A stretch of DNA of 64,000 bases, taken from the NCBI RefSeq assembly GCF_000422085.1, contig NC_021741.1:4402001-4466000 (forward strand), read 5' to 3'. This stretch comes from Serratia liquefaciens ATCC 27592. Lineage in GTDB: Bacteria; Pseudomonadota; Gammaproteobacteria; Enterobacterales; Enterobacteriaceae. The first letter of the stretch is position 1, and each line of letters starts with the position of its first letter. The notes under the pieces are model-generated. The model was not told where the DNA came from, did no database searches, and worked only from the letters and a program-made list of their open reading frames with translations. Positions 13,529 through 55,450 of this stretch are shown here, in pieces. The position numbers and the translations under genes were made by a program.

Positions 13529-13801
13529 ATGAGCAGAACCATTTTTTGTACCTTCCTGCAGCGTGACGCCGAAGGGCAGGACTTCCAGCTTTATCCAGGG
13601 GAAGTCGGCAAACGCATCTATAACGAGATCTCGAAAGAAGCCTGGGCAGAATGGATGAAAAAACAAACCATGCTGATCAACGAGAAAAAACTGAACATGA
13701 TGAACGTTGACGACCGCAAATTGCTGGAAGCGGAAATGATCAAATTCCTGTTCGAAGGACATGACGTCCATATCGAAGGCTATACGCCACCAAGCGAATA
13801 A
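13529..13801 (+). CDS. yggX: Probable Fe(2+)-trafficking protein YggX
   Basis: Protein of 90 residues linked to protection of iron-sulfur clusters from oxidants and to labile iron handling. The conserved N-terminus [19 protein letters not shown] carries the family's single conserved cysteine; [12 protein letters not shown] and the C-terminal [14 protein letters not shown] are also typical. A GAGG ribosome site lies 7 bases upstream. It precedes mltC by 54 bases. Confidence 0.96.
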
Positions 13802-13855
13802 TGCTGTTGGGGCCAGGCGCTGGCCCTTCCAATACTTCTCGTATACGGCTTTAAG

Positions 13856-34670: not shown

Positions 34671-36197
34671 ATGAGTGAGGCCACAACGTCAGTCAATAAA
34701 AGCCCCGGTCGCATTTTTTACTGGGTAGAACGCATCGGGAATAAAATCCCCAATCCTTTTTTACTGTTCGTCTATTTAATCGTTATTTTAATGCTGGCCA
34801 CAGCGCTGTTCTCCTGGCTGGACGTAGCAGTGAAGAACCCGGCCACCGGCGAGCTGATCAAGGTGAATAACCTGATGAGCGTAGCGGGCATGCAGTGGAT
34901 TTTCCCGAACATCATTCATAACTTCAGCAGCTTTGCGCCGCTGGGAGCCATTCTGGCACTGGTCATCGGCGCTGGGCTGGCAGAGAAAGTCGGGCTGTTG
35001 CAGGCGCTGATGTATAAAATGGCCTCACGCGTTAGCGCACGCTATGCCAGTTATATGGTGCTGTTTATCGCCTTCTTCAGCCACATTTCATCGGATGCCG
35101 CGCTGGTGGTGATGCCGCCACTCGGCGCACTGATGTTCCTTGCCGTGGGCCGCCATCCCATTGCCGGGCTATTGGCCGCTATTGCCGGGGTCGCTTCCGG
35201 CTTTACCGCCAACCTGCTGATCGTCACCACCGACGTGCTGCTGTCCGGTATCAGTACCGAGGCCACCAAAGCGGTAGACGCCGCCGTTCACGTCAGCGTG
35301 ATCGACAACTGGTACTTTATGGCCACCTCGGTGATCGTGCTGACCATCGCCGGCGCACTGCTGACCGATAAGTTTATTGAACCCAGGTTGCCGGAATGGC
35401 GCGGCAGCGCGGAAGACAAAATTGAAGCGCTAACCCCGCTGCAAAACCGTGGGCTGATGATGAGCGGCATCGCCGCACTGGTGTTTATCGCGATTATCGC
35501 CGCGCTGGTGGTGCCGGAAGCCGCCCCGCTGCGCGATCCCAAAACCGGTTCGGTGATCCCCTCGCCGTTCATCAAAGGCATTGTACCAATCATCATCCTG
35601 TTCTTTTTCACCGTCGGCATTACCTATGGCGTGGTCACCAAACAGATCCGACGGCCAGACGATATTCCCCACCACCTGACAGAGCCGATGAAGAGCATGG
35701 CCGGCTTTATCGTGATGGTGTTTCCGCTGTCGCAGTTCGTGGCGTTCTTTAACTGGAGCAACATGGGCAAGTTTATGGCCATCGGCCTGACCGACATGCT
35801 GGAAGCCGCCGGCATGAGCGGCGCACCGGCGTTCCTCGGCCTGATGTTCCTCTCTGCCTTCCTGTGCATGTTTATCGCCAGCGGTTCGGCCATCTGGTCG
35901 ATTCTGGCACCGATTTTTGTGCCGATGTTTATGCTGCTCGGCTTCCACCCGGCGTTCGCGCAGATGATCTTCCGCATTGCCGACTCCTCGGTGCTGCCGC
36001 TGGCACCGATGTCGCCATTCCTGCCGCTGTTCCTCGGTTTCCTGCAGCGTTACCGCAAAGACGCCCAGCTCGGCACCTATTACGTGCTGATCCTGCCGTA
36101 TCCGCTGGTGTTCTTTGCCGTGTGGATTTTACTGTTGCTGACGTGGTACGCACTCGGCCTGCCGATCGGGCCGGGGGTCTATCCGAAGATGGGGTAA
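34671..36197 (+). CDS. abgT: p-Aminobenzoyl-glutamate transporter AbgT
   Basis: Membrane transporter of 508 residues with about a dozen hydrophobic segments that imports p-aminobenzoyl-glutamate for AbgAB. The N-terminal WVERIGNKIPNPFLLFVYL and HISSDAALVVMPPLGA are typical of the AbgT family. The gene is intact. Its last 284 bases recur almost unchanged at 40941-41214, bracketing the CDI orphan array. Confidence 0.96.
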   Translation: MSEATTSVNKSPGRIFYWVERIGNKIPNPFLLFVYLIVILMLATALFSWLDVAVKNPATGELIKVNNLMSVAGMQWIFPNIIHNFSSFAPLGAILALVIGAGLAEKVGLLQALMYKMASRVSARYASYMVLFIAFFSHISSDAALVVMPPLGALMFLAVGRHPIAGLLAAIAGVASGFTANLLIVTTDVLLSGISTEATKAVDAAVHVSVIDNWYFMATSVIVLTIAGALLTDKFIEPRLPEWRGSAEDKIEALTPLQNRGLMMSGIAALVFIAIIAALVVPEAAPLRDPKTGSVIPSPFIKGIVPIIILFFFTVGITYGVVTKQIRRPDDIPHHLTEPMKSMAGFIVMVFPLSQFVAFFNWSNMGKFMAIGLTDMLEAAGMSGAPAFLGLMFLSAFLCMFIASGSAIWSILAPIFVPMFMLLGFHPAFAQMIFRIADSSVLPLAPMSPFLPLFLGFLQRYRKDAQLGTYYVLILPYPLVFFAVWILLLLTWYALGLPIGPGVYPKMG

Positions 36198-36205
36198 GCG
36201 TGGTC

Positions 36206-36230
36206 GGCCTCCCTTCGGGGGGGCCTGGCA
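36206..36230 (+). terminator. Hairpin after abgT
   Basis: GGCCTCCC-TTCG-GGGGGGCC-type stem with a stable TTCG loop just after the abgT stop. The right-hand copy of this region has a different hairpin (41221-41246). Confidence 0.65.
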
Positions 36231-36240
36231 CATTCAACTA

Positions 36241-36272
36241 TCAGAGATAATAGCCAATGCCGACATTAATAC
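36241..36272 (-). pseudogene. Remnant of the 3' end of an Ail/OmpX-type gene
   Basis: Read on the minus strand these bases encode a Val-Gly-Ile-Gly-Tyr-Tyr-Leu stop, matching the NIGIGYRF end of the intact Ail-like gene at 41260. The following sequence is no longer coding. It shows that the left repeat extends past abgT into the neighbouring gene. Confidence 0.65.
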
Positions 36273-36606
36273 TCTATAAAAATAAATGATTTATTAAAAT
36301 TTTTTATTTTACACAGCCTAAAAAATCTAACATTCTAAAAATAATAGCCACTAAAGAGAACTGGCGCCCTCCAGAAAAACAAAAAAACAGCCCTATAAAC
36401 TTGTTTAATAGAAAAACAAAACTCTCCTTTAGTTAAAAAACACTAATTAAATTACCAATTTAATTAATAGCAATGATAAAATTCAAAAAAACAACTATAA
36501 AAAAACGATTTAACGTATTTAAAAGCAAGCACCATAATTTCTCAATGCCATTTTCATCAGTGTGCCGAGAGACATCTCTAATCGAATGATGTCCATTTTT
36601 CACCCT
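36273..36606. other. AT-rich gene-free stretch left of the CDI orphan array
   Basis: About 330 bases of strongly AT-rich sequence with no reading frame I can support. It lies where the body of the duplicated Ail-like gene would be expected, and is probably decayed DNA. Confidence 0.5.
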
Positions 36607-36666
36607 ATTTTCTTATTCATTGGGTTAAGCACGGTAATACCTATGGTCAGAACGATTTTGCAAAGT
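36607..36666 (-). pseudogene. Remnant of the secreted-protein gene (signal peptide part)
   Basis: Minus-strand reading KRLCKIVLTIGITVLNPM parallels KRLCKTVLLPMNIGIAVL of the intact small gene at 37967. The start codon has become ATA and the frame stops soon after. This is the third copy of this signal-peptide family in the island. Confidence 0.6.
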
Positions 36667-36770
36667 CGTTTTATTTTTTATCTCTTCTATCTTAGCAAAC
36701 ACTCAAATCCCAATGACTAATGGAACGCCAGCGCCTGCCCCAGTTTTGCAAGAAAAAACAAATGGAAATG
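36667..36770 (-). pseudogene. Remnant of small membrane immunity gene with W-to-stop change
   Basis: Minus-strand reading SCKTGAGAGVPLVIGI, stop, VFAKIEEIKN matches ACKAGAGAGVSLGIGV-W-VFAKIEEIKK of the immunity gene at 37964-38214. The tryptophan codon TGG is TGA here. The 5' half is missing. Confidence 0.7.
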
Positions 36771-36801
36771 TTCAGCATTTCTCATTGCGTCTATTCATTT
36801 A

Positions 36802-37050
36802 TCAATCCTTCGGTGGTTCATTAGAGGATGATTTCTTATTAGCATTATACTCATCTATCTTTGCAAAAACCCATGAACCAACACCAGTTGCAACGCCAAC
36901 AATACCACTAACCACCAAAGAATCTTGAAGATATTGTTGGGTAAAGTGCAGTTGACCAAATTTGAAAAAATTAATAACACCCTTTGCTAATAAAATGAAC
37001 ACAAGAAAACACACAAAACAATAAATAATGCTAATAAGTAATTTTTTCAT
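36802..37050 (-). CDS. Small two-helix membrane protein, putative CDI immunity protein
   Basis: Protein of 82 residues (100 if a GTG at 37104 is used) with two hydrophobic helices and the C-terminal VASGVGSWVFAKIDEYN-type motif (here GVATGVGSWVFAKIDE). It is paralogous to the product of 37964-38214 and to the remnant at 36667-36770. It sits in the orphan CDI array without a recognisable toxin before it. The role as immunity to a membrane-acting toxin tip is inferred from position and paralogy. Confidence 0.6.
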   Translation of the reverse strand: MKKLLISIIYCFVCFLVFILLAKGVINFFKFGQLHFTQQYLQDSLVVSGIVGVATGVGSWVFAKIDEYNANKKSSSNEPPKD

Positions 37051-37104
37051 TTTAAACTTATGTAATGCCACATAAAAAAATAATATGATCACAACCGAGA
37101 TCAC

Positions 37105-37440
37105 TGCCCACGACCTTTCAGACCCTTTTATGACACTAGTTTAAGTCGTCACCGACAACATTAACATAGTTAAAATCACCTTATTTTCAAATGGTTAACT
37201 TAAATCACTTCAACACCAAATATGCCGCCACCCCAAAAAAATCCAGTTTCATAATTAATTAGTTGTACCAGTAACTTGCGATCCGCTTCACGTCAATAGT
37301 AAAATCGGCCACCCAGCAAGCCGATTTTATAATCGCACTTTTTATCTTCATCTACCTAAAACGTTGGAACAGGGGTTGCAACTGCTCAAGCCAGCAACTA
37401 TTACCCCCAAAAGTTATCGGGGGGAGAAATAGAATTAACA
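37105..37440. other. Intergenic stretch in the orphan array
   Basis: About 335 AT-rich bases without a convincing gene. It contains a terminator-like stem AAAATCGGC/GCCGATTTT at 37301-37328 that would close the immunity gene read leftward from 37755. Confidence 0.5.
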
Positions 37441-37755
37441 TCATTCATCATACTTATAGTTTATCTTGAAATCACCTTCAGATGAAATACTGAAATATAT
37501 ATTTGTTATATTTTTATTATGTTGTTTAACAAGATTATCTCTTAAACAAATAGCTGCTTTTGTAGCGGAAACAGAAATAGGTAAGCTTGGTATGTTCAAC
37601 GCAGGATAACGCTGGCCCCGGTATACACGCCAACCTTGACTACTGCTCATTTGGTCGAACAGTTCAATATCAACCCCAGCGACATCCCAAGGCTCAGTAC
37701 CGACAAATGCCAGCACCTCGTTAGCTATAAAGCTGTAGGCTTCTTCTATAGTCAT
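37441..37755 (-). CDS. Putative immunity protein, YezG/DUF600-like
   Basis: Soluble protein of 104 residues. An N-terminal helix (EEAYSFIANEVLAFV), WDVAGVDIEL, a central YRGQRYPAL and the C-terminal FSISSEGDFKINYKYDE resemble the YezG/DUF600 immunity family found beside polymorphic toxins. It begins 8 bases after the small secreted-protein gene, whose C-terminus may be a toxin leftover. Family assignment is by eye. Confidence 0.6.
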   Translation of the reverse strand: MTIEEAYSFIANEVLAFVGTEPWDVAGVDIELFDQMSSSQGWRVYRGQRYPALNIPSLPISVSATKAAICLRDNLVKQHNKNITNIYFSISSEGDFKINYKYDE

Positions 37756-37763
37756 CGTCTATC

Positions 37764-37967
37764 TCACTGTATAAATGTGTATGTTTTAGGCACACCATCT
37801 ATGATGGCCGTCACCCTAAATGCATCGGGACGAACTCCTCCACCGTCCGGATATCCTACATCGAGTGTCCGCATTTCTTCGCCTGTGACAGCACCAGCAC
37901 TCAGGGGGCTAAGCACTGCAATACCGATGTTCATCGGTAGCAAAACAGTCTTGCAAAGTCGTTTCAT
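37764..37967 (-). CDS. Small secreted protein of the 'EEMRTLD' family, possibly chimeric
   Basis: Protein of 67 residues with an N-terminal signal peptide (MKRLCKTVLLPMNIGIAVL, cleavage near SAGA) and then VTGEEMRTLDVGYPDG, which matches the start of the larger secreted protein at 42609. After this the sequences diverge; the tail DAFRVTAIIDGVPKTYTFIQ does not match that protein and may derive from a toxin tip cognate to the downstream immunity gene. Its ATG overlaps the stop of the upstream immunity gene (ATGA). Confidence 0.6.
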   Translation of the reverse strand: MKRLCKTVLLPMNIGIAVLSPLSAGAVTGEEMRTLDVGYPDGGGVRPDAFRVTAIIDGVPKTYTFIQ

Positions 37968-38214
37968 TTTTTCTTTTTTATCTCTTCTATCTTAGCAAAC
38001 ACCCAAACCCCAATGCCTAATGAAACGCCAGCACCTGCTCCAGCTTTGCAAGCAAAAATAAACGTATCTAACCGATACTCAAAAACTCCATTACGAACGA
38101 AGAAAATTATTGGCGCGATAAAACTAGCTAAAATAGCTATGCCTATTATCAATAATGCACACGAAAAAAAAATAAATATAAAAACATTGAGAAACCTACA
38201 CGTTTATTTTTCAT
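37964..38214 (-). pseudogene. Small membrane immunity gene, frameshifted at a T9 run
   Basis: The ATG at 38214 overlaps the stop of the preceding toxin tip (ATGA), the classic cdiA-cdiI coupling. The frame starts MKNKRVGFSMFLYLFFF and breaks at a run of nine T (plus-strand A9, 38164-38172). One more T would continue as SCALLIIGIAILASF to the conserved GVWVFAKIEEIKK end, about 83 residues with two helices. It is paralogous to 36802-37050. It could be decayed, slippage-decoded, phase-variable or a sequencing error. Confidence 0.65.
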
Positions 38215-38221
38215 TTTTCAT

Positions 38222-38495
38222 CCTCAGCTTTCATCCCAGCTTCAATTCCTGCCCCTACAACTGTCCCAGCCACACCGCCACCCACAACCCCAGATGCTTC
38301 AGCAGTAATGGGGGATATACCTTTAGATATAATTTTTCGGTTATTTTTTCACCACTTTTACTTTGTCGAAGATCGGGCTTAACGTCTGATTGGCGTGCTC
38401 CACGTCGCGGCTCAGGTCGTTGACGTCCTGCGTTTGTTTGTCCTGATCGCGGATGATGATGGTGCCGTCGCTTACCGCCGCTGGTCTGACAGAAT
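38222..38495 (-). pseudogene. Orphan cdiA fragment with short glycine-rich toxin tail (CT3), frameshifted
   Basis: Bases 38361-38482 are nearly identical to codons ~2720-2761 of the main cdiA (plus strand 44380-44502; [17 protein letters not shown], ending SPIFDK). After SPIFDK the sequence switches to a different ~45-residue tail rich in glycine (EASGVVGGGVAGTVVGAGI) that ends at the immunity gene. The two parts are one base out of frame at an A6 run (38344-38349). There is no start codon, so it is a silent recombination donor or relic. It lacks the VENN-type boundary. Confidence 0.7.
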
Positions 38496-38519
38496 TTCAT
38501 TTCAGCAGATCATGCATCT

Positions 38520-38653
38520 ACCTGCTTACTGCTCAGATAGTTATTCTCGACAACCGCAAGAAGGTGGCCCTGTGGCTGAAGGATTTTCCGGGCCCGCTGA
38601 ACGATATCGGCGATGCGCCGGTGTTCAAGCGCCGTGACGGATGGTGCTGGTAA
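38520..38653 (+). pseudogene. 3' fragment of an unrecognised gene
   Basis: Plus-strand frame ending KKVALWLKDFPGPLNDIGD then APVFKRRDGWCW stop. Its GC-rich third codon positions contrast with the AT-rich surroundings, so it looks like a scrap of a chromosomal gene. No start is present, and a terminator-like ATCCCG/CGGGAT hairpin follows at about 38669-38690. I do not recognise the family. Confidence 0.4.
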
Positions 38654-38693
38654 CGGCTGATAAAAGGATCCCGGCTCGGTAGTCGGGATTATT

Positions 38694-39056
38694 TCAAGTC
38701 CATAGCTCTCCACCATCAGGTGTTAGCCAAACGACCCCAACAGGTGCCTTAACTAAAAACCACATTCCATATTCATCTAAATCATCATCTTCATATGGGT
38801 AAGCAGGCCAGGCCTCTTCCAACATTTTTATTTGTTGCTCAACAGGAGCAGTCAAAAGCACGCCATTCGTAGCTAGTTTAATTTTTTTATTATTCAATAA
38901 GTTACCCAAAACAACAAAAAATATTTTTTTCCTGAAAGAGTAGTTATCAGGCAACTCAGAACATTCAACACTGATATGTTGCCATATAGCCCCCAAAGAC
39001 AATCCATAAGAACTTTCGGCAACAGATTTATATATCTCATTGATATTTTTAATCAT
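38694..39056 (-). CDS. Putative immunity protein, DUF596-like
   Basis: Soluble acidic protein of 120 residues. NEIYKSVAESSYGLSLGAIW, the acidic YPYEDDDLDEYGMWF and the terminal LTPDGGELWT resemble the DUF596 family, whose members are encoded beside polymorphic toxins. It begins four bases before the toxin frame ends (overlap ATGA type), so it is the cognate immunity of the CT2 toxin tip. It appears intact. Confidence 0.65.
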   Translation of the reverse strand: MIKNINEIYKSVAESSYGLSLGAIWQHISVECSELPDNYSFRKKIFFVVLGNLLNNKKIKLATNGVLLTAPVEQQIKMLEEAWPAYPYEDDDLDEYGMWFLVKAPVGVVWLTPDGGELWT

Positions 39057-39991
39057 TTAAATTTAATCTCCACCCTTCTTCCACCATTTATAGATGGAGT
39101 CATTAAATCTATGGTCCATTTAGCACCAGTTTGTTGTGCTGACGTTGAAAAGTCTCTCAATGTCAAAGTGCTACCAGCAGAAGGTCCTTCTGTGACTTTT
39201 AACGAATACACCGTACCTTTACCAGGAACCACCTTAGCTGATTGCATATTCTCTGACCTCGAAAGTTGCTTAAAGTAAGTCATAACATCAGCGTCAGTAG
39301 CTCCTTTAAATACAGGAGCACCTAAACTTAACGGTGGAGCTGCAACCATTATTTTCCCATTAATATTTAACTGGAAATCCTTCGGATGTACTGCCGGATT
39401 ATTAAACTGAGGGGCAAGGCCATCAAATTTTTTTTCACTGCTTGCTGCTGTAATATCGCCCCAGATGGTTTTCCACTTAAATCAGAAATATTTTTCGCAT
39501 TTTGCCCGATTCTTTCTAATGCTTCTTTTTCAGCTGATAATTTTCCAGCATTCATAGCTGTCGACTCAGCCTTACCCGCAACCTTAGCTGCAAACTTCTC
39601 CGTCAGTACCACTCCGCCCTTGGCCAGCCCAGCACCACCGGCAGCCAAAGATGCAATATCAGTCAGTAGTTTACCACCCTCGCCCCCTGCATTGAATGAG
39701 CCGCTGGCTCCCGCCTTTTGATACTCAGTAGTCAGCTTATCTATTCTGTCGATATAAGATTGTTTTACTGCGCCGCTAACATTACTTAATACACCATCAC
39801 CGTCGAATAAGGCAGAGATTGAGCTCCATGTGTCCACTGGGCTTAAGCCCATTTTCACAATGCCTTCTACCGTTTCGTACAGTGAAGCAGGCACGCCCGC
39901 GACAATTCCCGCAGCAAAGCTGCCATCCTGGCCCGCATCTATTGCAGTCCATTTCGCCTGAGTACCCGCTTCGCATACCGCGAAAGGGTTT
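39053..39991 (-). pseudogene. Orphan CdiA toxin tip (CT2), frameshifted at a homopolymer
   Basis: Open from just after a TGA at 39992, starting [14 protein letters not shown], without a start codon, as expected of an orphan cdiA-CT. The first part ([58 protein letters not shown]) is the cytoplasm-entry type domain common to many CdiA tips. The frame then shifts at an A8 run (plus strand T8, 39428-39435) and resumes as [20 protein letters not shown] to the toxin end at 39053. The 98-residue final domain is not one I can name. Confidence 0.72.
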
Positions 39992-40007
39992 CAGGCTTAA
40001 AAATACT

Positions 40008-40030
40008 AACCCCGGCTAAAGCCGGGGGAA
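40008..40030 (-). terminator. Terminator after the SUKH immunity gene
   Basis: CCCCGGCTTTAGCCGGGG hairpin (minus strand) followed by TTAGTATTTTT, placed just after the stop at 40036. Confidence 0.75.
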
Positions 40031-40035
40031 TTAGA

Positions 40036-40500
40036 TCAACTTATACTTTGCATTTGTTTATAAAAAAACTCGCCAAAATCATTTGCTAATGGCTTAAATG
40101 CGAGCTGATGATCATTCACTCCAGGAGACCATAGCTTAACAGGAGCTTCTGAGCCTGATTGAGCGCAATCCAAGACCACATAATCCCCATCTCCCGTAGC
40201 ACTGACAATTATATAATTATCTGGTAAATTAGAGTTATTTCGTTCTTGGATCGTTATCCAAACAGCATCAGGAACACTTGAGTTAAAAAAATCAGATTTA
40301 ATTAGCCCATAAAACTCTTGACCCGCGATATCCCCACATCCTAAATTCTCTAAAAAGAATCGATATGTTATAGGAAAGCTTAAGCCAAGTACCTTCTCAG
40401 CAGATTTAATGAGCGCATCATCTTTAGGCCCATCAAAGTCTGCCTCGTCAATCTTACCATTAATAATATCAATGGCATTTTTCATATCGTTCAAGCTCAT
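40036..40500 (-). CDS. SMI1/KNR4 (SUKH) family immunity protein
   Basis: Protein of 154 residues. The SUKH superfamily pattern is visible: DDALIKSAEKVLGLSFPITYRFFL-type helix and strand (AEKVLGLSFPITYRFFLEN), GQEFYGLI, then LPDNYIIVSATGDGDYVVLD. SUKH proteins are immunity factors for nuclease toxins. It starts 5 bases after the HNH-type toxin tip and is very likely its partner. Confidence 0.82.
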   Translation of the reverse strand: MSLNDMKNAIDIINGKIDEADFDGPKDDALIKSAEKVLGLSFPITYRFFLENLGCGDIAGQEFYGLIKSDFFNSSVPDAVWITIQERNNSNLPDNYIIVSATGDGDYVVLDCAQSGSEAPVKLWSPGVNDHQLAFKPLANDFGEFFYKQMQSIS

Positions 40501-40505
40501 ATCAT

Positions 40506-40942
40506 CTACCTTTTAAAAGCCTGAGCACGTTCTTTCCAGTAATTAGAACGCCATTTGTCAAACTCAGTCCGATTAATGCCAGAAGGAATACTGTTATCAT
40601 TGATATGGATAACCCCATGATTCTCTTTATGGAAAGCTTGAGTTACCTCCGCTATAGGGCCATCTTGACGTTGCAACATATGATGTAAATTCACAGAGTT
40701 TCCATTTGCATCAAGTGGTGCCAACCCTTTTTCCATCCTTTGAATATTGCTTCGCCCCCTGGCATCTACAGCATTAGGATCAAACAAATCATTCCGCTGA
40801 TAGACCTTGTTACCATTAAATTGTATTGGTTCAGCAGACCAATACTTCCTTTCTTGGCCGAAGTACTTGGCGCTGCTTACTTCATCACTGGCCTTATTGA
40901 GTAACTTCGATGCGTCAGCAACATCACCTTTTGCCAGCGCTT
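40506..40942 (-). pseudogene. Orphan CdiA toxin tip (CT1), LHH/HNH-type nuclease
   Basis: Open minus-strand frame without an ATG (the first methionine-like codon is TTG at 40787). It reads from SAQKALAKGDVADASKLL through KVYQRNDLFDPN to VNLHHMLQRQDG and ends TEFDKWRSNYWKERAQAF. The LHH motif and the following HKENHG match the LHH group of HNH/Endo VII-fold nuclease toxins. The frame runs right up to the junction with the duplicated abgT end at 40941. It is a displaced cdiA-CT next to its SUKH immunity gene; silent unless recombined. Confidence 0.75.
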
Positions 40943-41214
40943 TTTGTGCCGATGTTTATGCTGACCCGGCATTCGCGCAGATGATCTTCCGCATTGCCGA
41001 CTCCTCGGTGCTGCCGCTGGCACCGATGTCGCCATTCCTGCCGCTGTTCCTCGGTTTCCTGCAGCGTTACCGCAAAGACGCCCAGCTCGGCACCTATTAC
41101 GTGCTGATCCTGCCGTATCCGCTGGTGTTCTTTGCCGTGTGGATTTTACTGTTGCTGACGCGGTACGCACTCGGCCTGCCGATCGGGCCGGGGGCCTATC
41201 CGAAGATGGGGTAA
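40941..41214 (+). pseudogene. Duplicated 3' fragment of abgT
   Basis: Copy of abgT 35914-36197. It differs by three substitutions and a 10-base deletion near its left end (after GCTG), which breaks the frame relative to the upstream part. Similarity stops sharply on the left, where CT1 toxin sequence begins, and weakens just past the TAA on the right. With the intact abgT it forms a direct repeat about 5 kb apart around the CDI orphan array. Confidence 0.93.
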
Positions 41215-41220
41215 AGATTA

Positions 41221-41246
41221 CCGGCCTCTTGATATCGGGAGGCCGG
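41221..41246. terminator. Hairpin between the abgT fragment and the Ail-like gene
   Basis: CCGGCCTC / GAGGCCGG stem with a ten-base loop, at the end of the minus-strand Ail-like gene. Confidence 0.6.
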
Positions 41247-41259
41247 AAGCATGCAACTA

Positions 41260-41835
41260 TCAGAAACGATAGCCAATGCCGATATTGAAACCGTTGATAG
41301 AGCGATTTTTACCACCGGCATCCAGTTTGGAGCCTTCATAACCGATATCTACCGCCAAATTTTCCATTGGGTTAACCTGGAAACCAACGCCGTACATAAA
41401 GGAGGTTTTCTTCTGGTTACCGCTCTCTTCACCCATATATTCGTAAGTGTTGTATGCGTAATTACTCCAGGATGACTTGTAATCCACCTTGTTATAATTC
41501 AAACCCAGCAGCCCGTAAACGCTGACAAATTGATTAAAACGGTATGCCGGACCAACGGACAGTGAGTAATATTTAACTTCGGCATGATTATTGACCTTGT
41601 CGCGATAGACATTGTAAGACTCATCCTTGTCACCGCTCATATAGGTAAATGAGCTGATAACGCTGATTGGCGAATCCCACTCGTAACGGTACTTAACGTT
41701 CACGCCATTGATATTCTTGAAGTCCTGTACCTTGCTCTGTGCATAACCGGCAGTGATGGTACTTTGCCCGGCATGGGCAGCCATGCCGAAGCCCAGAGTG
41801 GAAAGAACCAAAGTGGAGATGATTAACTTTTTCAT
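41260..41835 (-). CDS. Ail/Lom/OmpX family outer membrane protein
   Basis: Protein of 191 residues forming an eight-stranded barrel. Signal peptide MKKLIISTLVLSTLGFGMA with cleavage after AHA, then GQSTITAGYAQSKVQ at the barrel start, the GPAYRFNQFVSVYGLLGL strand, and the C-terminal NIGIGYRF ending in Phe. The family includes Ail and PagC, involved in adhesion and serum resistance. The start is set by AAGGA seven bases upstream of MKKLI; a longer frame is unlikely. A remnant of its 3' end lies beside the intact abgT. Confidence 0.87.
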   Translation of the reverse strand: MKKLIISTLVLSTLGFGMAAHAGQSTITAGYAQSKVQDFKNINGVNVKYRYEWDSPISVISSFTYMSGDKDESYNVYRDKVNNHAEVKYYSLSVGPAYRFNQFVSVYGLLGLNYNKVDYKSSWSNYAYNTYEYMGEESGNQKKTSFMYGVGFQVNPMENLAVDIGYEGSKLDAGGKNRSINGFNIGIGYRF

Positions 41836-42075
41836 GCAATCTTCCTTAATCGTAAGTGGAACAACATTGGTAAAAAAAATAACTATCCATGTCGTATTGG
41901 CGGCATAAATCATTAATTTTTCATTATCAACAAAAATTGGTTGATAAAATTAGATTATAGCAAACCCTGTTTATTATTAATTAGTTGAACGTGCAATTTG
42001 CTAACCGCCTTTTAGAAAGAACAATCACGCTGTCTTTAGTCGCTGGGAACTGTCTATTCGCTTTCAAACTATTCC

Positions 42076-42609
42076 CTACTCTACTTTATGGCAATAAAGG
42101 GGGGATTCACCCGGAGCCCTGACCACATAAGACGGAAAATCGGTGATTTCTGTCGTCTGATAGGGCTGGACTTCTTGCGTTGCTGGAAGCCGATCCCGAA
42201 ATCCTTTGGCTACAATCACCTCACTCGAAGGACTGACCGGCATTGAGACTTTCAGGCTTTTCGGATCGATATAAACCCGCTGACCATTCTCTTCCATAAT
42301 CACTTTCTGCCGATAGCTCAGAGTAATTGTTGCCGTTGATGAGCCATGAGGAATGAACATCACGCGGACATCGGCGTGGCTTAGATTTTCCGCTCTACTT
42401 ATGATATGCCCACGAATTTTTGTGGTCATAGGCAATAGATTTTTACCATTCCCGGCAAGTTCGGCCTCGCAGTTAACAATACTGCCAGGCGGATAGGCGG
42501 CATCGAGTGTCCGCATTTCTTCACGTGTGACAGCACTAGAGTCCAAGGAGCCAAGCAATATAAAACCGCCAATCACCAATGGTAGGGCTGTCTTGTAAAA
42601 TCTTTTCAT
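42076..42609 (-). CDS. Secreted protein of the 'EEMRTLD' family
   Basis: Protein of 177 residues with a signal peptide (MKRFYKTALPLVIGGFILL, cleavage near DSSA) and a mature start VTREEMRTLDAAYPPGS. The rest is beta-rich and has one cysteine pair (VNCEAEL and the terminal YCHKVE). The start follows a strong AGGAGGAG site. I do not recognise a family. It lies directly after the CDI immunity gene, and two shorter relatives occur in the orphan array. A periplasmic or pilus-subunit-like role is possible but unsupported. Confidence 0.7.
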   Translation of the reverse strand: MKRFYKTALPLVIGGFILLGSLDSSAVTREEMRTLDAAYPPGSIVNCEAELAGNGKNLLPMTTKIRGHIISRAENLSHADVRVMFIPHGSSTATITLSYRQKVIMEENGQRVYIDPKSLKVSMPVSPSSEVIVAKGFRDRLPATQEVQPYQTTEITDFPSYVVRAPGESPLYCHKVE

Positions 42610-42713
42610 AGCCTCTCCTCCTGACACCCGGCAATATATTTATCCAAAAAACGCTCCATAATAACTCTATGGAATTACCCTCTACTATATTAAGTTAAAA
42701 TGAAGCATAAAAC

Positions 42714-43151
42714 TCAACTTAAAAAATGAAAGATAATACCAACAACATATATTACCCTAATGCTCCACAAGGCCAAACCCCGTAAGCCAGCTCTTTTGGC
42801 AAAAAAAATCTCACTAAAGATTGCTGAGCTCTTTATTCTTCCCGGCTTAATCTCACCCTTGTAATAATAGCAATACATGAGAAAAGCCCATGCCCCAGCT
42901 ATCAGAATAAATTGATATGTGTGTCTCGCCTCTATATCAAAACGCAGTAAAAAAGATGCAGGAATGACCAATAGAAGAACAATCCTCGCAGTCATAGCTG
43001 TAAAGTTTTCTTTACCAACAAAGAAAATGCCATCAAAGAACACTGACATTGATGAAGGAGCCCAATAAGAGAGCCCCGTTTTTTTACAAAAAACAATAAA
43101 AGAGACAAAAAAAATGGCAATAATTAATATTTGAAAGTAAATTAACATCAT
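42714..43151 (-). CDS. cdiI: CdiI, membrane-type immunity protein
   Basis: Protein of 145 residues with about four hydrophobic helices (from the N-terminal LIYFQILIIAIFFVSFIVF to the C-terminal IRVIYVVGIIF). It starts 8 bases after cdiA and should protect against the current CdiA tip. A membrane immunity protein suggests that the toxin acts on or from the inner membrane. AT-rich codon use fits recent acquisition with the toxin tip. Confidence 0.75.
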   Translation of the reverse strand: MMLIYFQILIIAIFFVSFIVFCKKTGLSYWAPSSMSVFFDGIFFVGKENFTAMTARIVLLLVIPASFLLRFDIEARHTYQFILIAGAWAFLMYCYYYKGEIKPGRIKSSAIFSEIFFAKRAGLRGLALWSIRVIYVVGIIFHFLS

Positions 43152-43159
43152 TATCTATC

Positions 43160-46100
43160 TCACTTTTTTTCAAAATCATAGTGATAGAACTCAGTCCCGG
43201 AGGAACCATTTATATCAACATTACCAACTCCAGTTTCTTTTGATATTCCGGTCCAGCCGATAGCTGGTCCTACACCCAAGCTTAACCCTACACCATCTTT
43301 GCCATACGAAATCCCCACACCGGCAATCCCAAAACCAAAGTCTAATGAGTTATTTCTTTCCATATCAAGCGTATTAGCAAAGTATGGCCCCAGCTGTATA
43401 CCTATTTGGCCAGCTACTCGCCCGCCCAGAGCAAGTGTCTCCCCCTGATTAAGCGATATTTGCGTTGTGTCGACTGTCCCGTCTACATAAAGGCCATAGC
43501 CGGCACCAACCGCAGCCTCAACTTTACCGTAAGGTTTAACTTTATATGTAACACCAACTGAAGGACCAAGATGTGAGTCTTTGACTGCCTGATCAATAGC
43601 CTCTGGTCCGGCCCCTTTCTGTGCCATCCAAAATGCCAGCGATGCATCCTGCTGGACGGCTGGTGGTATAGGGAAGTTAAACTGGTCATTATTCTCAGAA
43701 GTATTCTTACCGGATTGTCCACCAACGACCGCACCCGCCGTATCGCCACTTGCCAAGCCGCCGGCCAAACCACCTGCGAGCGTAGCCAACGCGGAAACAG
43801 TCTGGCGCTGTTCTTCGCTCATTTTGCTGAAGTCACTGGTGCCGAACATCGCCTCGGCAATCGCTTTAGTGCCTAATGCAGCTGTCGCAGCGCCCGCAGC
43901 TCCCGCCGCGGCCGATTGGCCTTGCAGTTCAGCCAGTGCGCCAGCCACCACGGCATGTGCGATAATTCGGCTTTCCTCATTCGGTGCCAGGCGATGTATC
44001 TGTTCCGCCAGATACGGCGCAGCCCCACCGGCAATCGCGGCTTTTAGATCGCCACCGGCCAACCCTTGCACTGCGGCAACCGCCGCCTGCATACCCTGTT
44101 GAACCTTACCGCCCGTACCATAGCCCGACTCGCTGAACGCCTGGTTATACGCCGTCTGGTAAATCTGTTCGTTGATATCCTTATCGGTGATGACCTTGCC
44201 ATTTTTTTCTTTCGCCAGCTTAGCCGCAGCGGCCTGGCGATCGGCATCGGTAACGTTATTCATTTTCTCGTTGGCGGCTTTGGTTGCGGCGATCGCCCCC
44301 TCGGTCCGCGCTATGTCCATCGCCTGATTGCCGATCTCGCCGATCAGCTGCGCCTGCTGTAGCCGTTTTTGCTCTTTCTCTTTGTCGAAGATCGGGCTTA
44401 ACGTCTGGTTCGCGTGCTCCACGTCGCGGCTCAGGTCGTTGACGTCCTGCGTTTGTTTGTCCTGATCGCGGATGATGATGGTGCCGTCGCTCACCGCAGC
44501 AAAGGTGGTTGAGCTGTCGTGTCCGCTGTTGTTGGCCCCCACCAGCAGGCCGTTGGCCATGTTGCCGGCGAACTGGCTGCCAATGCTGCCGCCGGAGCTG
44601 ATGCCTACGCTCTGGTGCTCCACGTCGAAATCGGCCTGATTGTGGATGTCCTTAAAGCCCAGCGTGCCGGTATCGAGCTTGTTTTTGTCGGCGGTGGCGG
44701 TGCTGCCGATCACCGCGCCGTTAAGCTGGGTATGTTCGCCCACCGTCAGGTCAAAGCCGCCCTTGCCGGCGAAGATGCCCGTCTGCTCCTGCACGCTGTC
44801 GTAATTGCTGTGCATCTTGTCTTTGCTCAGGCTGATGCTGCCCGAACCGGTCATCGAACCGAAGGTGAAGCTGCCGCCAGCGCTGGCATTCTGCTGTTTG
44901 GAATCGTAACGATCGCTGTCCTGCTGGCTTTCCAGCAGCAGATTGCGGCCCACGTCGGCCTTGACCGATTCGCCGGTGACCTGTGCGCCGATCAGGTTGG
45001 TATCGCGTCCGCTGGTAATGTTGACCTGATTACCGGCGTTAACCGTGGTTTCGGTGTGGCTGGTGCCGTTGCCCTTCTCGTTACCCTTGCCCTTATTGAC
45101 GCTGGCGGAAACGCTCAGCCCAATACCGCCGGAACCGACACCGATACCCACGCCCAGCGTGCCGCCCTGGCTCTCGTTTTTACCGTCCAGATACTGGGTG
45201 TTTTTGGCGGAAAGCAGGTTCACGTCGCGGTTGGCATTCAGGGTGACGTCCTTGCCCGCCTGCAACTGGCTGCCCTGCACCAGGATGTCGCCGTCCTGGC
45301 CCTTCACGCCGTTGCCGCTGGCGGTAATGCTCAGGTTATTGCCCGCCGTCAGGCTGCTGCCCTGCGCGGTGCTCTGCCCGCTGTTTTGAGTAGAGGTGGA
45401 AGACTGGGTACCGTAGGAAATGCTGATCCCCACCATGTTGTTATTGGCCGGATCGGCGCCCTGCGCCTGCGCCAAACGCGCCGCCTGCACCGCCTGTACG
45501 CCGCTCAGCGCCGCCTTGGTACCCTGCAATGCCGCCAGGCGACTGTCGTCGGTGGATTTCGCCTGCTGCGAGGTTTCTACCGCAGTGTTCAGCGCACTGC
45601 CGACCGTGCCGGACAGTGCCAGTGTCAGACCGGATTTCTTCTGTTCAACCTTGTGAGTCTGGCTGTTCTGATCCTGCGCCTGCGTGACCGACACATTCTT
45701 GCCGCTCAGCGCCATGTCCTTGCCGGCCACCAGCTCGGACCCGGTCACCGCCAGGTTATTACCGGCCCCCAGGGTGACGTTGCCGTTTACGCTGCCGACG
45801 GTGCTGCCCTGATTGGTCAGCCCCTGCGCGGTATCCGTGGTTTTCAGGCTTTCGGTGCCGTAGCTGATGCCGATACCCCCGCTGCTCATCAGGCCGGATT
45901 TTTTCTCCTGCTTGAGGTGCAGTTCGCTGTTGCTTTCGGTCGCGCCGGTGATGCTCAGATCGTTCCCTGCCAGCAGTTTCACGTCCTGAGTCCCGGCCAC
46001 GCTGCTGCCCTGAACGCGTAAATCATTGCCCGCCAACACATTAATGCTGTCGCCGCTCAGGGTAGTGCCCTGTACGGTCTGGCGATCCAGAGTGTCGCGG

Positions 46101-49100
46101 GTGGTGGTCGTGGTTTTCGACATCAGGCCGTTACCGCCGGTCACCTTGTGTCGCTCGTCCAGATCGAGAGTGTTCTCGCCGCTGAGAATATTGATGTCAT
46201 GGCCGGCATTGAGGTTCAGCGCATCGCCGGCCGAAACCGTTGCCGCATGGGCAGTAATATCGTTCCCGGCATTGAGGGTCACGGCCCCTTTGCCCACCAC
46301 TTCGCTGCCGACCTGCTGGCTGTTGCCCTGTTTCAGGCTGTTGTCGCCATTCCAGATCAGGTTGTCGCGGCTGGCCGTGGTCACCGTATTCAGGGTGAGA
46401 TCGCGCCCGGCACTCAGCAGGGTTTGGCCATTCTCACCGCTGTTAACCACCTGCGCCGCATCCAACTTGATGTCGCGACCGGCCTGCAGCATCAGCTTGC
46501 CGTCGGCTCCCTGCACGTACATGCCTGCCACGCTGTCGATGTTGGTGCGTTCGAAGCTGTTGGCACCGTTAACGCTCTGCGCCGTACGGGTAGTGCTGAT
46601 GGCGTTGATATCACGCCCGGCGCTGGCCAGCAGCGAGTTGTTGCCCTGGATCACCCCGCCGATATTGTTAATGTCGGTACGGGCAGTCAGGCCAACGTCG
46701 GCCCCCTGAATCTGGCCCGCCACGTTGGTGATGTTGGCGGCGCTCAGTTTCACCACTTCACGCCCGGCGATATGGCCGCTGTTGAACAGGCCTTCGCCCA
46801 GATTGAGATTGACGTTACGCCCGGCAATCAGCGCACCGGAGCCATCCAGATCGCCCGGTTGCATGCGGGCATACACTTGCGGTACCAGGACGTTTTGCTG
46901 GCTGCCGTCCGGCAAGGTGACTTTGGCGTTCACCAGCCAAACGATATCTTGGGTCAACAACCCCATCTGCTCAGCCGTCAGCGCCACGCCCACCTTCAGG
47001 TTATATTGCTGGCTGAAGGCCAGCCCCTGATCCATCAGCGCCTTAAACTGCTCTTCGTCGTTGTTGAAACCGTCCAGATAGCGCTGGCCGGTCAGGTTGA
47101 TCACCTGTTCGCGGATCAGCCGCTGCTCGTAGTAACCGTCACCCAGGCGCTTCAACACGTTATCCGGATTATTGGTCACTTTACCCATCATGTAATCCGA
47201 ACCCAGCCAGGCTTTCTGGTTGGTGAAGCGCGGATCGGTCTCCACCAGATACTGGCCGCCCGGCGCCGGATTGGTCTTGAACAGGCTGTTGTCCGGCAAA
47301 CGGGTGTCTGGCCCGACAATGCGCACCACGCTGTCCGCCACGTCGCCCTGCTGGTTATTGACCTTGTTGGCGACTTCGAACTGCTGACCCGGCTGCAACG
47401 CTACGGCCTGGATCACCGGCAGAGCGCCGCTGCCAATAGTCTGCAGGCCGGCGGAAATATCACTGCCGCTGACCACCGCATTGACCCCACCGGCAGCGCC
47501 GATAGTGGTATTGGTGCCCTGCTGCGTCAGCGGGGCAATGGCGATTGGGTTACCTGCCACCTGCCCGTGGTCAATCAGCTGGCTCGGCTTCAGCGAAATG
47601 GTCTGAATGGTGGTCGGTGGCGTATAGGCCGTGGCATTGTGCCCCTGCTTATCTTTACCCTTCTTCTTGATGCGGTAGTAACTGGTCACTTCGCCGACGT
47701 CGGTGGTCAGGCGCTGGCCCGGCACCGCCACGTTATCCACGCTGCCGGCATTAATCGCCAGCGTGCCGCCCGCGATCACCTGGCTCTTGTCGTTCAGCAG
47801 ATGGCCGGCGTTGATCGCCATATCGCCACCCGCGATGATTTTGGCCGGATCGCTTTCCTTGATCTGGGTTTCCTGCACCGTGCGGTTGTAGTCGTATTGC
47901 GTAAATCTGTCGTTGTTATGCCCAGTTTTCCCTGGGGTATTCAGGTTCAACAGCGAGTCTGATGAATTGCGGTCAACGAAAACGCCCGGTTCTCCGGCCA
48001 TCCAGCGTACCGGGTCACCCGATTGCTGATACTCGGTAATTTTTCCGTTGGAAACGGTGACCAGTTCGGTAGTAAAGCGGTCGTTGACGTTGTTGATCTG
48101 TCCGGCCGAAATAGCCATGTTGCCCGCAGATTCAAGGGTCGAACTGTGATTGTTGAGGGTACCGGCCTGGCCAGTGGCCAGGTGGTTGGCGTCAAGCTGG
48201 CCGCCAATCGCCATGTCCCCGCCGCTGTAGATCAACCCATGATCGTAGTTATTCAGCGTTTGGGTGCCGATATCCACCCGTTCGCGCCCGGCCAGCGTGG
48301 CAGCGGTGCCGTTTTCCGCCAGGTTGTTAAAGGTGACGGTTTGCACGCCAATAGCATCGCCATAAATACGGCCGGTGCCAATGTTGGTCAGCGTATTGGC
48401 CTGGATCAACGTATGTTTGCCGTCAATCAGACCATAGTTGGTCAAGGTACCGTTGACCGTCAGCCAATCCTGCCCGGCGTTTATCTCCCCGCTGGCGGCA
48501 TTGAACAGATTATTGGCGCGCAGATCGAGCTTGGCACCCGCCAGCAGTTTGCCGCTGTTGGTCACATCGCCCGGCGTGGTGAAATTGAAATTGCCGTTGG
48601 CAATCATCTCACCGCTGTTATTGATGCCCTGTGCGCTGACCAGGTTCATATCGCCCAGCGACAGCAATTGCCCGTCGCCGCCGACCGCTGCTGCGTTGAT
48701 GTCCAGCAGCTTGCCCGCTTTAACGATACCGCCGGTGTTCAGCAGGTTAAGCGCCGCGCCCTGCAACCGCAGGTTTTCGCTGGCGGCCAGTTGGCCAGCG
48801 CTGTTATCCAACTGACCGCCGTTGGTGATAGTCAGCTGTTGGTTAGCCAGAATGCTGCCGCCACGGTTGCTCAACGAGCCGGTGTTCAACGCCACGGCTT
48901 GGCCTTCCAGCCCTTTATTTTCCGCCTTGGTGTCGTCGTTGATGAACTGCAGGGCATTGAGCGTCACGGTGGCGCCGCTGCGGATCAGCCCCAGGGCGTT
49001 GTCGATAACCCCCTGAGCGCTGTCCAGCAACAGGTTACCGACCGCCTGAATTTGTCCATTGCGGTTATCCAGACCGGCACTGGCGAGTTGAACCGCCTGT

Positions 49101-52100
49101 TCGCCAATAATCCGCCCGCCGTTACTGTTGTCCAATTTCAGCGCCGCCAGGGCAAAGCCACCTTTGGCCCCCAGCGTTCCGCCCTGATTATTGACGTCGC
49201 CACTGCTGAGCTGCAGTTTACCCAGGCTGTGCAGGGTACCGTTCTGGTTATCCAGCCGCTGGCCGTGGGTATCAACATGCATATCCGCACCCGACTGCAC
49301 CAATCCACCCTGATTATTCAAGCCGCCTGCGCCGGTGGTATTCAGCACCAATGCCTGCTGTGCCACCAGTTTGCCGCCACCGTTCAGCAGCGCTTCGGCA
49401 TCGAGCTGCAAGCCCTTGCCGGCAATCACCACGCCCTGGCCGTTATCGAATACGCCGGTAGTGAGGTTCATCGCCCCCTGGCTGGTGATGCCGCCCTTGT
49501 CGCCGCTGTTGGCGTTGGTCAGCCGCTCAACGGTCAGATCTAACCCCTCACCACTCTGGATCAGGCCACCGTCGTTGTTATTGAGGCTATTGCCGTGCAG
49601 CTCCAGCGCCGTCTGTGCCGCCAACTGGCCGCCCTGATTCTCCAGCAGGCCGAAGTTAATCTTCGCCACATCGGCGCTGACCAGCGTGCCCTGATTGTTC
49701 ACCAAATGCGCGCTGTCCAGCTGCAGTTTTTTGCCTGCGCCAATCACCCCAAGATTGCTGTTATCCAGCAATTCTTTGGCATCCAGCGTCATATCCTGAC
49801 CGGACTTGATCGCCCCGCCCTGGTTATTGATCACCCTGGCGGTGGCCGACAGCTGCTTCTCTGAAGCCAGCGTGCCGCGGCGATTATCCAGTTGCTCGCC
49901 ATGCAGCTGCAGGTCACCCGAACTGGCGATAAAACCGGCTTGGTTATCGACGGCACCGCTGGCGATCGTCAGTTTGCCCAGGCTGCTGATACCGCCATTC
50001 TTGCCGCTGTCGCGATTGCTCAACGCCTGACCATGGGTATCGATGCGCGCATCGCCGCCCGCCTGCAACAGTCCTCCGTCGTTGGTCAGTGCCAGGCTGT
50101 CGATATTCAGCTTCTGCTTGCCGACCAGAGTGCCCTGGCTGTTATCAAGCTGGGCGGTGAACAGATCGGTCGTCCCGGCACCCACCAGCATGCCCTGGCT
50201 GTTGTCCAGCGCGCCGCTGTGGATCGTCAACGTCCCCTGGCTGAGGATGCCGCCGGTTTCACCGCTCAGGCGGTTGCTCAACGCCGCGCCCTGGGTGTCG
50301 ATATTCAAATTGCCGGCGGCTTGCAGCAGGCCAGCGTCATTGTTCAGCACACCGCTGCTCAGGCCCAGATCTCCGCTGGCGGCGATAACGCCCTGTTGGT
50401 TGTTCAGCGCCCCTTTGCCCAGCGCCAGCGAAAGCGCGCCGCCCACGACCTGCCCGGCCTGATTCTCCAGCCCGGTACCGGTCAGTTGCAGAGCCTGTTT
50501 GGCTTCAATACGGCCGCCGCGGTTATCCAGCGCCTGTCGCGCCGTGACCTCAGCATTGCCCGTCGCGGCGGAAACCAACCCCTTGCGGTTATCCAGCTTG
50601 TCCGCCCGCAGCTGAGTATGGCCGCTGGCCGCCAGTTGTCCCTGTCGGTTATCGATAGCGCCGCTGACCTGTGCCTTCAGGCTGCCGTCCTGCGCAGCAA
50701 TCACTTTGCCGCTTTGGTTGTTCAACCGCGCGGCGTTAAGCGCGACGTTACCGTTTGCCGCCAGTTGGCCGCCCTGGTTATCAATCCCCTCGCGGGTTGT
50801 GAGGCGCATCTCACCCTTGCCGCTCTGCACCAGTTGGCCGCTGCGGTTAGACAGGCTACCGGCATTCAACGCGATCTGCTGCGCTGAAGTGGTGCCGCCG
50901 TCTAATACGTAGTCGCCGCCCTGCATGCTGAGCTGGCCGTTGGACAGCAGCTTGCCACCATCGCCCTGCAAGCGACCTGTATTCACCGCCAGCGCACCTT
51001 TACCGGCATGGACGATTTGCCCGCCCTGGTTGTCGATCAGACCCGCTTCCAACGTCAAGTCATTGCCGTTGCTGGCAATACGGCCACCGGCGTTATCCAG
51101 TTTGCCCTGTGGGTTCAACCGGAGGTTGTCTTCGCCAAGCTGGGTGATCTCCCCCTTGCGGTTGGATAAGTCATGCGCATTAAGCGCCAGTTTATTCGCC
51201 GCCAGCTTGCCACCGTCATTATTGAACCGCTTGCCGCTGCTGGCGGTGAGCTGTTGCGTGGCTTCGACCTGTGCATTGGCCGTGGACAAATCGCCGGCCC
51301 CGGCTTCCAGCGTGACCTGGGTAGCCGCGGTACGGCTGCCGCTGATGTCCACGCCCTGCCCATTGGCACGCAGGTTGCCTGCCGCCAGATTTTGGCCCTG
51401 CGCAGTCAGTTTTCCGCTGGTGGTTAGCGCCAGTTCGCCGCTGCCGCCAAGCCGACCATCCTGTTGCACACCGGCCGCCAGCGTACTGCCTTTGCCGCTG
51501 TTCAGGCTGGCTGCCTGGATACGCACATTATTGCGGGCCGCAATTGAACCGCTGTTTTGTACCTCACCGTCGCTGCTGACATCGGCATGGCCCGCCGCGA
51601 ACAGCGAACCGCTGTTGCTGACGCCGCCCTTCGAGGCCAGTTGCGTATCAGCGCCGCTGCTAATTTTACCGCTGTTTTCAATACGGCCATCGGCAGTGAC
51701 TATCACGCTGCCGGCCTGCGCACCGATGTTACCGGCGTTACGTACCCCAACGCCGGTTTCGGTGCCAATCATGCGGATCTTACCGGCGTACATACCGCCC
51801 AGCTTAGCCACGTCCACCGCAAGTTGTGGACGGGTGGCCGGCTCGTCGCTTTGTTTGTCGATCTGTTGATGCGCGGCATCCACCTTGTTGCGCCCGGTGG
51901 TGACTTTGAGATCGTTCGCCCACAGTCCGGCATTGATCTTCGTCGAACGTGCAATGATCTCGGTGTAATCCTGGCGCGAACTGTCCATACCGGCGCCTTC
52001 AACCACCACTTCACCGCGTTCGACGTTAAAGCCGGTCAGGTTACCGTTGTTCATCTGCGCCTGCCCGGTGGTCAGGGTGGCGCGGTTGGCGTTGATAAAA

Positions 52101-54930: not shown

Positions 54931-55450
54931 TACTTTTTCCCTGTCGAAAGACAAATAAAAGATAAGAATTGTAAATAAACGCAAACATTATGCGCACGAA
55001 TAGCTCACGATCAACTTAATTTTGCTCGGTAATGGGCGCTGGGTAACAAAATGCTTAATAAGAAGGATCTGCAATGCTAATGCCGGCGCTGTTAAGCCAA
55101 GCCAAAAATAACAACTAACAAATTGTTTTTAATCACTATATTTATAAATCCATTTTAATCGACATTCATATTCATGAATAATTGCATCTAAACAATGCAA
55201 TTATTCATCACCGAGTCATTAACGCTAAACAGGTTACAACCTTTAAGAAATTTCCTATTTCAAATACGATTAACCACTTTATTAGCTCCCACCAGAAATC
55301 AAATTCGCGATTAATTGCCATGCTGTTTTTTAATTATATTTGTCAATGCGTTACTTATTCACAATCGATATAACTTATTCCGCCATCAAGTCATAGCCAC
55401 CTCGCAGTCTGCTGCCTTTCGCCTGGTGCGACAGATTCTTTCGTTGCAAT
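54931..55450. other. Divergent regulatory region between cdiB and scrK
   Basis: About 520 AT-rich bases without a convincing gene, which should hold the cdi promoter (leftward) and the scrK promoter (rightward). It contains a long perfect inverted repeat at 55174-55208. Confidence 0.6.
55174..55208. repeat. Perfect 14-bp inverted repeat
   Basis: ATGAATAATTGCAT, seven-base spacer, ATGCAATTATTCAT. The symmetry and the location about 245 bases upstream of cdiB suggest a regulator binding site or cruciform; no T run follows, so a terminator is less likely. Confidence 0.65.

Follow-up and report, generated by a model that had tools for sequence, protein, structure and literature searches.

How did an array of orphan toxin and immunity genes come to lie between two copies of the 3' end of one host gene, abgT? 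The chromosome of Serratia liquefaciens ATCC 27592 (5,238,612 bases) raises this question at a contact-dependent growth inhibition (CDI) locus within the window, by which we mean the whole 64,000-nucleotide stretch that was analysed (bases 4402001-4466000 of the chromosome). Intact abgT stands to the left of the array, and to the right a 3' fragment of the same gene (abgT') adjoins the apparently active cdi genes. The stretches that follow the two abgT ends belong to two different haplotypes, and the array meets abgT' at one illegitimate joint; all readings that fit the locus share this core. We favour, at about an even chance of being correct, an account in which two haplotypes of one CDI locus would have come to stand in tandem through a single illegitimate joint, during displacement by homology in cdiA. 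The direct repeat consists of two features.

34671 to 36197, plus strand: abgT, intact, its 3' end being the left repeat copy (Pfam PF03806, E 5e-190; NCBIfam PRK11339 above cut-off).
40941 to 41214, plus strand: abgT' fragment, the right repeat copy (from alignment to the abgT 3' end).

Bases 35914-36197 recur at 40941-41214 over 274 aligned bases with three substitutions (35954, 36144, and 36178 in left coordinates) and one 10-base gap (35937-35946), just as a first-pass annotation of this DNA had described. The second abgT copy in the genome was found with an E value of 8.3e-131, far beyond chance, and the abgT ends of the two copies are identical at 248 of 251 positions. There is no sequence sign of an assembly copy at the repeat, since the two repeats differ mutually and each flank matches relatives. 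Judged against the relatives shown, the right copy holds two of the three substitutions, both of which change the protein (W to R, V to A), in keeping with a fragment that no longer functions; the third is silent.

An intact gene on one side and its 3' fragment on the other is the geometry of site-specific integration into the abgT 3' end, with intact abgT as attL and the fragment as attR. However, none of the seven open reading frames (ORFs) of the insert searched in Pfam is an integrase or recombinase (the remaining small insert ORFs were unsearched), and both abgT ends carry alleles private to this genome, namely A at 36017 and at 36141, found in none of the eight relatives shown of the 15 aligned. 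We consider such an integration scarcely credible. A plasmid source was likewise rejected: 18 plasmid records matched pieces, none of them covering 80% of the insert, and the best covered 9% at 71%.

The abgT search covered 30 genomes of the genus, our own included, and abgT stretches from 15 relatives were compared. The relatives and their loci are given by number where needed: G006 is a Serratia liquefaciens metagenome-assembled genome (MAG), G023 Serratia sp. PL17, G004 S. grimesii, G020 S. quinivorans, G017 and G018 S. proteamaculans, G005 S. inhibens, and G287 a member of a different genus in the same family; loci L029, L031, L035, L139, L152, and L151 come from G007, G023, G004, contig C22 of G020, G005, and G016, respectively. 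A long abgT match was found in 16 of the 30 genomes (own included), with two copies only in our genome and one in each of the 15 relatives, when extra matches of 33-49 bases in two relatives are left out of the count. Intact abgT is 97-98% identical to G006 and G007 in 500-bp steps. In seven of the 15 relatives (G007, G006, G023, G017, G018, G004, and G020), abgT is followed by ail and cdiA, each once, so that the single-copy abgT-ail-cdi relatives for which the first-pass annotation had suggested looking do exist, in all seven with this arrangement. The stretches compared from the other eight had no match to the window beyond abgT. G006 has the entire right unit (window 40929-44600) at 97.2%, and G005 and G016 possess ail and cdiA without an abgT match. 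Among 11 loci each compared with itself, the abgT repeat was found only in the window.

In S. inhibens (L152, 6230-6440) and in L151, an ail gene and CDI array without adjoining abgT were found; another gene ends in abgT's place, and about 30 bases resembling the abgT tail are left. The self-comparison of L152 also brought out a repeat of 124 bp at 73% identity, in which flank sequence from upstream of ail stands on both sides (7121-7240 and 9559-9679) of a regulator and a transporter-like gene, perhaps a further trace of dragged flanks.

The two stretches following abgT distinguish the haplotypes.

36198 to 36263, no strand assigned: left post-abgT stretch with a hairpin, G023-like haplotype (58 of 66 against L031, 46 of 68 against the genome's own right copy).
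41215 to 41259, no strand assigned: right post-abgT stretch with a hairpin, native haplotype (67 of 68 against G006 over the aligned stretch).

A column was counted as diagnostic when G023 differed from a base shared by the right copy, G007, and G006. At 17 such columns, the left flank is of the G023 type at 14, native at one, and neither at two. The abgT end itself (35947-36197) is native at 10 of 11 columns in the left copy and at all 11 in the right copy. The flanks of the ail-bearing G017, G018, G004, and G020 agree at 59-66 of 68-69 positions with the right type and at 46-50 of 67-69 with the left type; because these four genomes are nearer the right type, the left type looks derived. The hairpins are predicted at -22.5 kcal/mol on the left and -21.2 kcal/mol on the right, and neither appears on our terminator scan list.

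The joint itself lies where the array runs into abgT'.

40941 to 40951, no strand assigned: joint of the CT1 pretoxin to the abgT 3' end, with microhomology (pretoxin of G005 against the abgT sequence).
40506 to 40955, minus strand: CT1, an orphan cdiA toxin tail of the LHH-nuclease type, domain unbroken, upstream cdiA part and VENN missing (Pfam LHH, E 7.1e-30).
40036 to 40500, minus strand: SUKH-family immunity gene of CT1, open, 154 aa (Pfam SUKH_6, E 4.8e-20; follows CT1 in G287).
40010 to 40027, minus strand: terminator-like hairpin after the SUKH gene (7 G-C pairs and a T-rich tail).

As the first-pass annotation had noticed, CT1 is joined directly to abgT. Its open frame begins at the joint, within the pretoxin and without the usual VENN-encoding part. 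The joint reads TTTTTCTGCCG in G005, whose pretoxin is the closest relative (92% over 71 bases), and TTTTTGTGCCG in abgT, giving a perfect microhomology of 5 bp, or 10 of 11 bases with one mismatch lying between TTTTT and TGCCG. At a random joint, the chance of at least 5 shared bases is about half a percent by a hand estimate with equal base frequencies. Two marks of homology-facilitated illegitimate recombination (HFIR) are found here: a microhomology joint at one end and two sides from different haplotypes. For the other end, the cdiA core offers a candidate homologous anchor, in which no crossover edge can be seen.

A 2583-aa open frame in G287 ends in a stretch with 94% amino acid identity to CT1. 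Together with the SUKH gene, CT1 is 88.7% identical over 919 bases to the G287 cdiA end, the match ending at 40949, whereas the G287 cdiA core reaches only 68%. The pair constitutes an orphan cdiA-CT/cdiI module, as it lies downstream of cdiBAI and consists of a piece of cdiA tail with an immunity gene behind it, and its ratios of nonsynonymous to synonymous divergence (dN/dS) against G287 are 0.06 for CT1 and 0.08 for SUKH. The scans for promoters and terminators add nothing, since their counts (18 promoter-like sites against 17.0 in shuffles; 7 terminator-like sites against 6.7) are near those of the shuffles.

Reading leftward on the minus strand from abgT', CT1 and SUKH are followed by CT2, which is broken and accompanied by a DUF596 gene, by one piece each of a VENN region and of cdiA core, and then, up to intact abgT, by immunity genes, relics of sec (a secreted-protein-like gene), and a relic of ail.

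39053 to 39894, minus strand: CT2, a second orphan cdiA toxin tail, broken into open pieces 39053-39349 and 39367-39894 (G020 C22 has an intact copy).
38694 to 39056, minus strand: DUF596 immunity-like gene, open, 120 aa (Pfam PF04591, E 2.7e-18; adjoins the intact CT2 in G020).
38482 to 38548, minus strand: VENN-region piece of another cdiA tail (90% to 4658355-4658417 of the same genome, where an ORF has an ATENN motif).
38347 to 38481, minus strand: piece of cdiA core (38355-38481 is 95% identical to the genome's own cdiA at 44374-44500).
37964 to 38152, minus strand: immR1, 62 of the 82 codons of the S. grimesii gene that follows cdiA (98% aa over 62).
37764 to 37967, minus strand: second, clearer sec relic, 5' part (82% aa to G004 sec over 45 residues; about 52% to the genome's own sec).
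37441 to 37755, minus strand: open 104-aa gene, weakly YezG-like immunity (Pfam PF04634, 16.8 bits, under the cut-off of 21.7).
37239 to 37408, no strand assigned: relic of the stretch upstream of ail (78.6% to L029 2605-2762).
36802 to 37104, minus strand: immL1, open 100-aa gene, homologue of the gene directly after G007 cdiA (79% aa over 85 residues to L029 3331-3585).
36622 to 36762, minus strand: relic of the sec 5' end and the start of the neighbouring immunity-type gene (80% to L035 4921-5077 of G004).
36218 to 36272, minus strand: short relic of the ail 3' end (78% of 55 nt to 41237-41291).

The only unbroken toxin domain, CT1, is the one nearest the joint; CT2 is broken, and further left only immunity genes and toxin scraps are found. 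Four immunity-like genes of the array are open (SUKH, DUF596, the weakly YezG-like ORF, and immL1), and immR1 is partial. The array is a mosaic, as judged from sequence identities, with parts nearer to other species than the core of those species is: 37848-38355 is 96.5% identical at the nucleotide level to S. grimesii, against 88% for abgT, and 38347-39979, with the joint between core and VENN pieces, is 94.7% identical to C22 of S. quinivorans, against 89% for abgT. In C22, the core piece is contiguous with 38482-39979 (94.7% over 1639) and an intact orphan CT2 has 543 aa; the CT2 homology stops at 39979, short of the VENN part. The S. grimesii counterpart of immR1 is L035 ORF 4979-5227, beside cdiA at 5217-14813, and the G007 homologue of immL1 directly follows cdiA at 3590-13207; immL1 of the window has no Pfam match above cut-off. 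The relic at 36622-36762 is paralogous to 37906-38062 (78%). Elsewhere in the genome (G000:C1:4658331-4658417; L026 865-2313), we observed a second cdiA-type tail with a 482-aa open frame and an ATENN motif, whose VENN region is 84-90% identical to window 38464-38548.

In comparison with G020, the DUF596 gene has 10 nonsynonymous and one synonymous changes (dN/dS 2.61, few changes) and CT2b has six and two (dN/dS 0.92, few changes), for a total of 16 nonsynonymous and three synonymous changes across 38694-39349, which spans both. These counts speak against simple purifying selection on both and may reflect relaxed or diversifying selection. The dN/dS of immL1 against G020 was excluded as misaligned (124.5 nonsynonymous changes over 97 codons).

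The first-pass annotation had explained the locus as a plain tandem duplication whose left copy then decayed, with abgT later converted or involved in a more recent event. The direct repeat and the partly same-order relics speak for it: the left ail relic is real though short, and so is the secreted-gene relic near 36607, though weak. The claimed colinearity of left and right stands for these relics and breaks down at the upstream-of-ail stretch, whose relic comes only after the first relics of sec and of an immunity gene as one moves rightward. The point that abgT and its flanks diverge too unequally for one simple event was also borne out. What decides against the left unit being a decayed copy of the right is that its flank is of another haplotype, because decay of a native copy would not bring back bases of the G023 type, and that CT1 and CT2, each present once, have no counterparts in the right unit or the rest of the genome. 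We therefore rejected plain duplication with decay as very improbable, with CT1, CT2, and the G023-like flank all confined to the left; tandem duplication could still have been one step, given a later haplotype swap.

The account that we favour involves the cdi genes to the right of the joint, which read leftward on the minus strand as cdiB, cdiA, a probable immunity gene, sec, ail, and abgT'.

53215 to 54984, minus strand: cdiB (Pfam POTRA and ShlB domains).
43160 to 52663, minus strand: cdiA with an Ntox25 toxin end, apparently intact (Pfam ESPR, TPS, haemagglutinin repeats (Fil_haemagg_2), PT-VENN, and Ntox25).
42714 to 43151, minus strand: probable immunity gene of the active cdiA (directly after cdiA; no Pfam match; same place in G006).
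42076 to 42627, minus strand: sec, secreted-protein-like gene without family (no Pfam match; 97% aa to G006).
41260 to 41913, minus strand: ail-like outer-membrane protein gene (Pfam Ail_Lom, E 1.4e-28).

The cdiB and cdiA genes have the make-up of a CDI system, with a CdiB carrying POTRA and a ShlB barrel and a CdiA carrying TPS, haemagglutinin repeats, pretoxin-VENN, and a toxin; the ORF at 42714-43151 has the position of a cognate immunity gene. In several relatives, a lipoprotein-like gene (motif SGCSV..LTKS) lies between ail and the cdi tail (L029 2659-3288, L031 2514-3125, L032 2645-3220, L035 2631-3197, and L152 9607-10176), where the window and G006 have sec.

In displacement by homology within cdiA, the donor strain would have had the native order of abgT end, ail, sec, immunity gene, Ntox25 end, and cdiA core. 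In a one-sided homologous recombination, its DNA would have paired with the cdiA core of the resident locus, and the other end of the incoming molecule, which fell within the 3' end of abgT, would have been joined by microhomology to the resident CT1 tail, with deletion of the VENN and upstream parts of that tail. The resident CT1-SUKH module would have been unloaded from cdiA to become the newest orphan, the abgT fragment would mark the end of the incoming molecule, and earlier rounds of a like kind may have left the older relics further left, the kept immunity genes presumably conferring protection. The two CDI haplotypes probably stem from conspecific strains, or from strains of the same species or clade. 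We favour the one-sided anchor in cdiA because the abgT fragment is then simply the end of the incoming DNA, because the loss of VENN from CT1 is the usual deletion, and because the decay gradient follows from it, with the newest orphan beside the joint and the oldest next to abgT.

Several observations weigh against this account. None of the genomes compared is in the pre-event state, and the microhomology was read from the G005 relative (92% over 71 bases), not from CT1's own parent. The left abgT end is native nearly to its stop codon, so that the switch of haplotype at this point presupposes either a previous exchange or a donor whose abgT was native. Sliding identity to G006 shows no crossover edge in cdiA (96.0-98.6% in 500-bp steps), and the synonymous divergence (dS) of ail, sec, the immunity gene, and the toxin (0.03-0.09) resembles that of abgT (0.075); an identity level with the surroundings and an abgT-like dS also fit a right unit that is an old resident and an array that is the newcomer.

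In that case, a donor segment of abgT, G023-like flank, array, and CT1 would have recombined in abgT, and its CT1 end would have been joined to the resident abgT 3' end. The right unit does look long resident: its gene content and order recur in G006 at the identity usual for the clade. However, the joint would lie upstream of the anchor, and the recipient would have to supply the abgT end twice, from two chromosome copies; the title of one HFIR source refers to insertion-deletions; and a left abgT end that is native at 10 of 11 columns would place the crossover within a few bases of the stop or call again for a native-abgT donor. We judge an incoming array to be rather unlikely.

Another order of events begins with a tandem duplication of abgT, G023-like flank, array, CT1, and cdiA through the CT1/abgT microhomology, after which a double crossover (in abgT' and cdiA) with a strain of the native haplotype would have replaced the right copy. 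Two ordinary kinds of event would then account for the joint, for the private abgT alleles shared by both ends, and for the missing CT1 on the right, and Poole et al. (2011, PMC3150448) have proposed that immunity can be kept through tandem duplication. Nevertheless, two events are required, and the right side retains no second copy of any array part; we regard duplication with a subsequent swap as possible, if doubtful.

The locus preserves an uncommonly legible record of how bacteria may acquire a new weapon and yet keep older immunity genes, a growth of orphan toxin-immunity arrays without immunity loss that has so far mostly been inferred from gene order. The event can be read here because a host gene end lies at the joint, the two flank haplotypes are separable, and sister species have a single copy. 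Recombination between the abgT repeats is predicted to delete the 5.0-kb array and restore the single-copy layout of G006 and G007, with a measurable loss of immunity, which is testable in one strain. It is conceivable, but unlikely, that the array is a reversible immunity cassette, a 5.0-kb circle with older immunity genes and the abgT end that could enter other chromosomes via abgT homology. Within the genus, such units may occur as circles or in tandem. Contig C22 of S. quinivorans (L139, 5384 bp), which carries related orphan modules, has identical 91-bp ends (1-91 and 5294-5384) and therefore closes on itself; when closed, the toxin-tail stop stands directly before the immunity-gene start. 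These ends point to a CDI orphan unit of 5293 bp that is circular or present in tandem, or else to a loop in the assembly graph.

As for known systems, we compared the locus with the accessible portions of the published accounts. In those on CDI with HFIR or on S. liquefaciens CdiA, we met no description of an abgT repeat, and we make no claim of its absence. The cdi locus of S. marcescens SM39 (PMC4231636) shares the genus and a cdiBAI with an orphan pair; it has one such pair, and the portion available mentions no flank-gene repeat. The orphan arrays described by Poole et al. (2011, PMC3150448) likewise contain truncated cdiA tails and immunity genes on the cdiA strand downstream of complete cdiBA, whereas here CT1 and CT2 are without the VENN part and the array lies beyond ail and the abgT fragment, not directly after the active immunity gene. 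The orphan regions of type-II cdi loci in Acinetobacter (PMC6336857), for which an analogous mechanism has been proposed and both illegitimate insertion and tandem duplication have been invoked, show the same step-wise 5'-3' build-up of cdi remnants; the portion available describes no duplicated host flank gene, whereas our locus has the abgT repeat and two flank haplotypes. A parallel in mechanism is the sequential displacement of effector-immunity modules by homology-facilitated illegitimate recombination, proposed for type VI secretion system (T6SS) arrays in V. cholerae (Kirchberger et al., 2017, PMC5361080), where old immunity genes are also kept, effectors lost, and the newest module placed by the core gene, with one homologous and one illegitimate end. 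Here the system is CDI, and the molecule presumed to have come in has ail and the end of a host gene at its far side, which makes the joint readable to the base. Our favoured reading matches a displacement model that is already in print.

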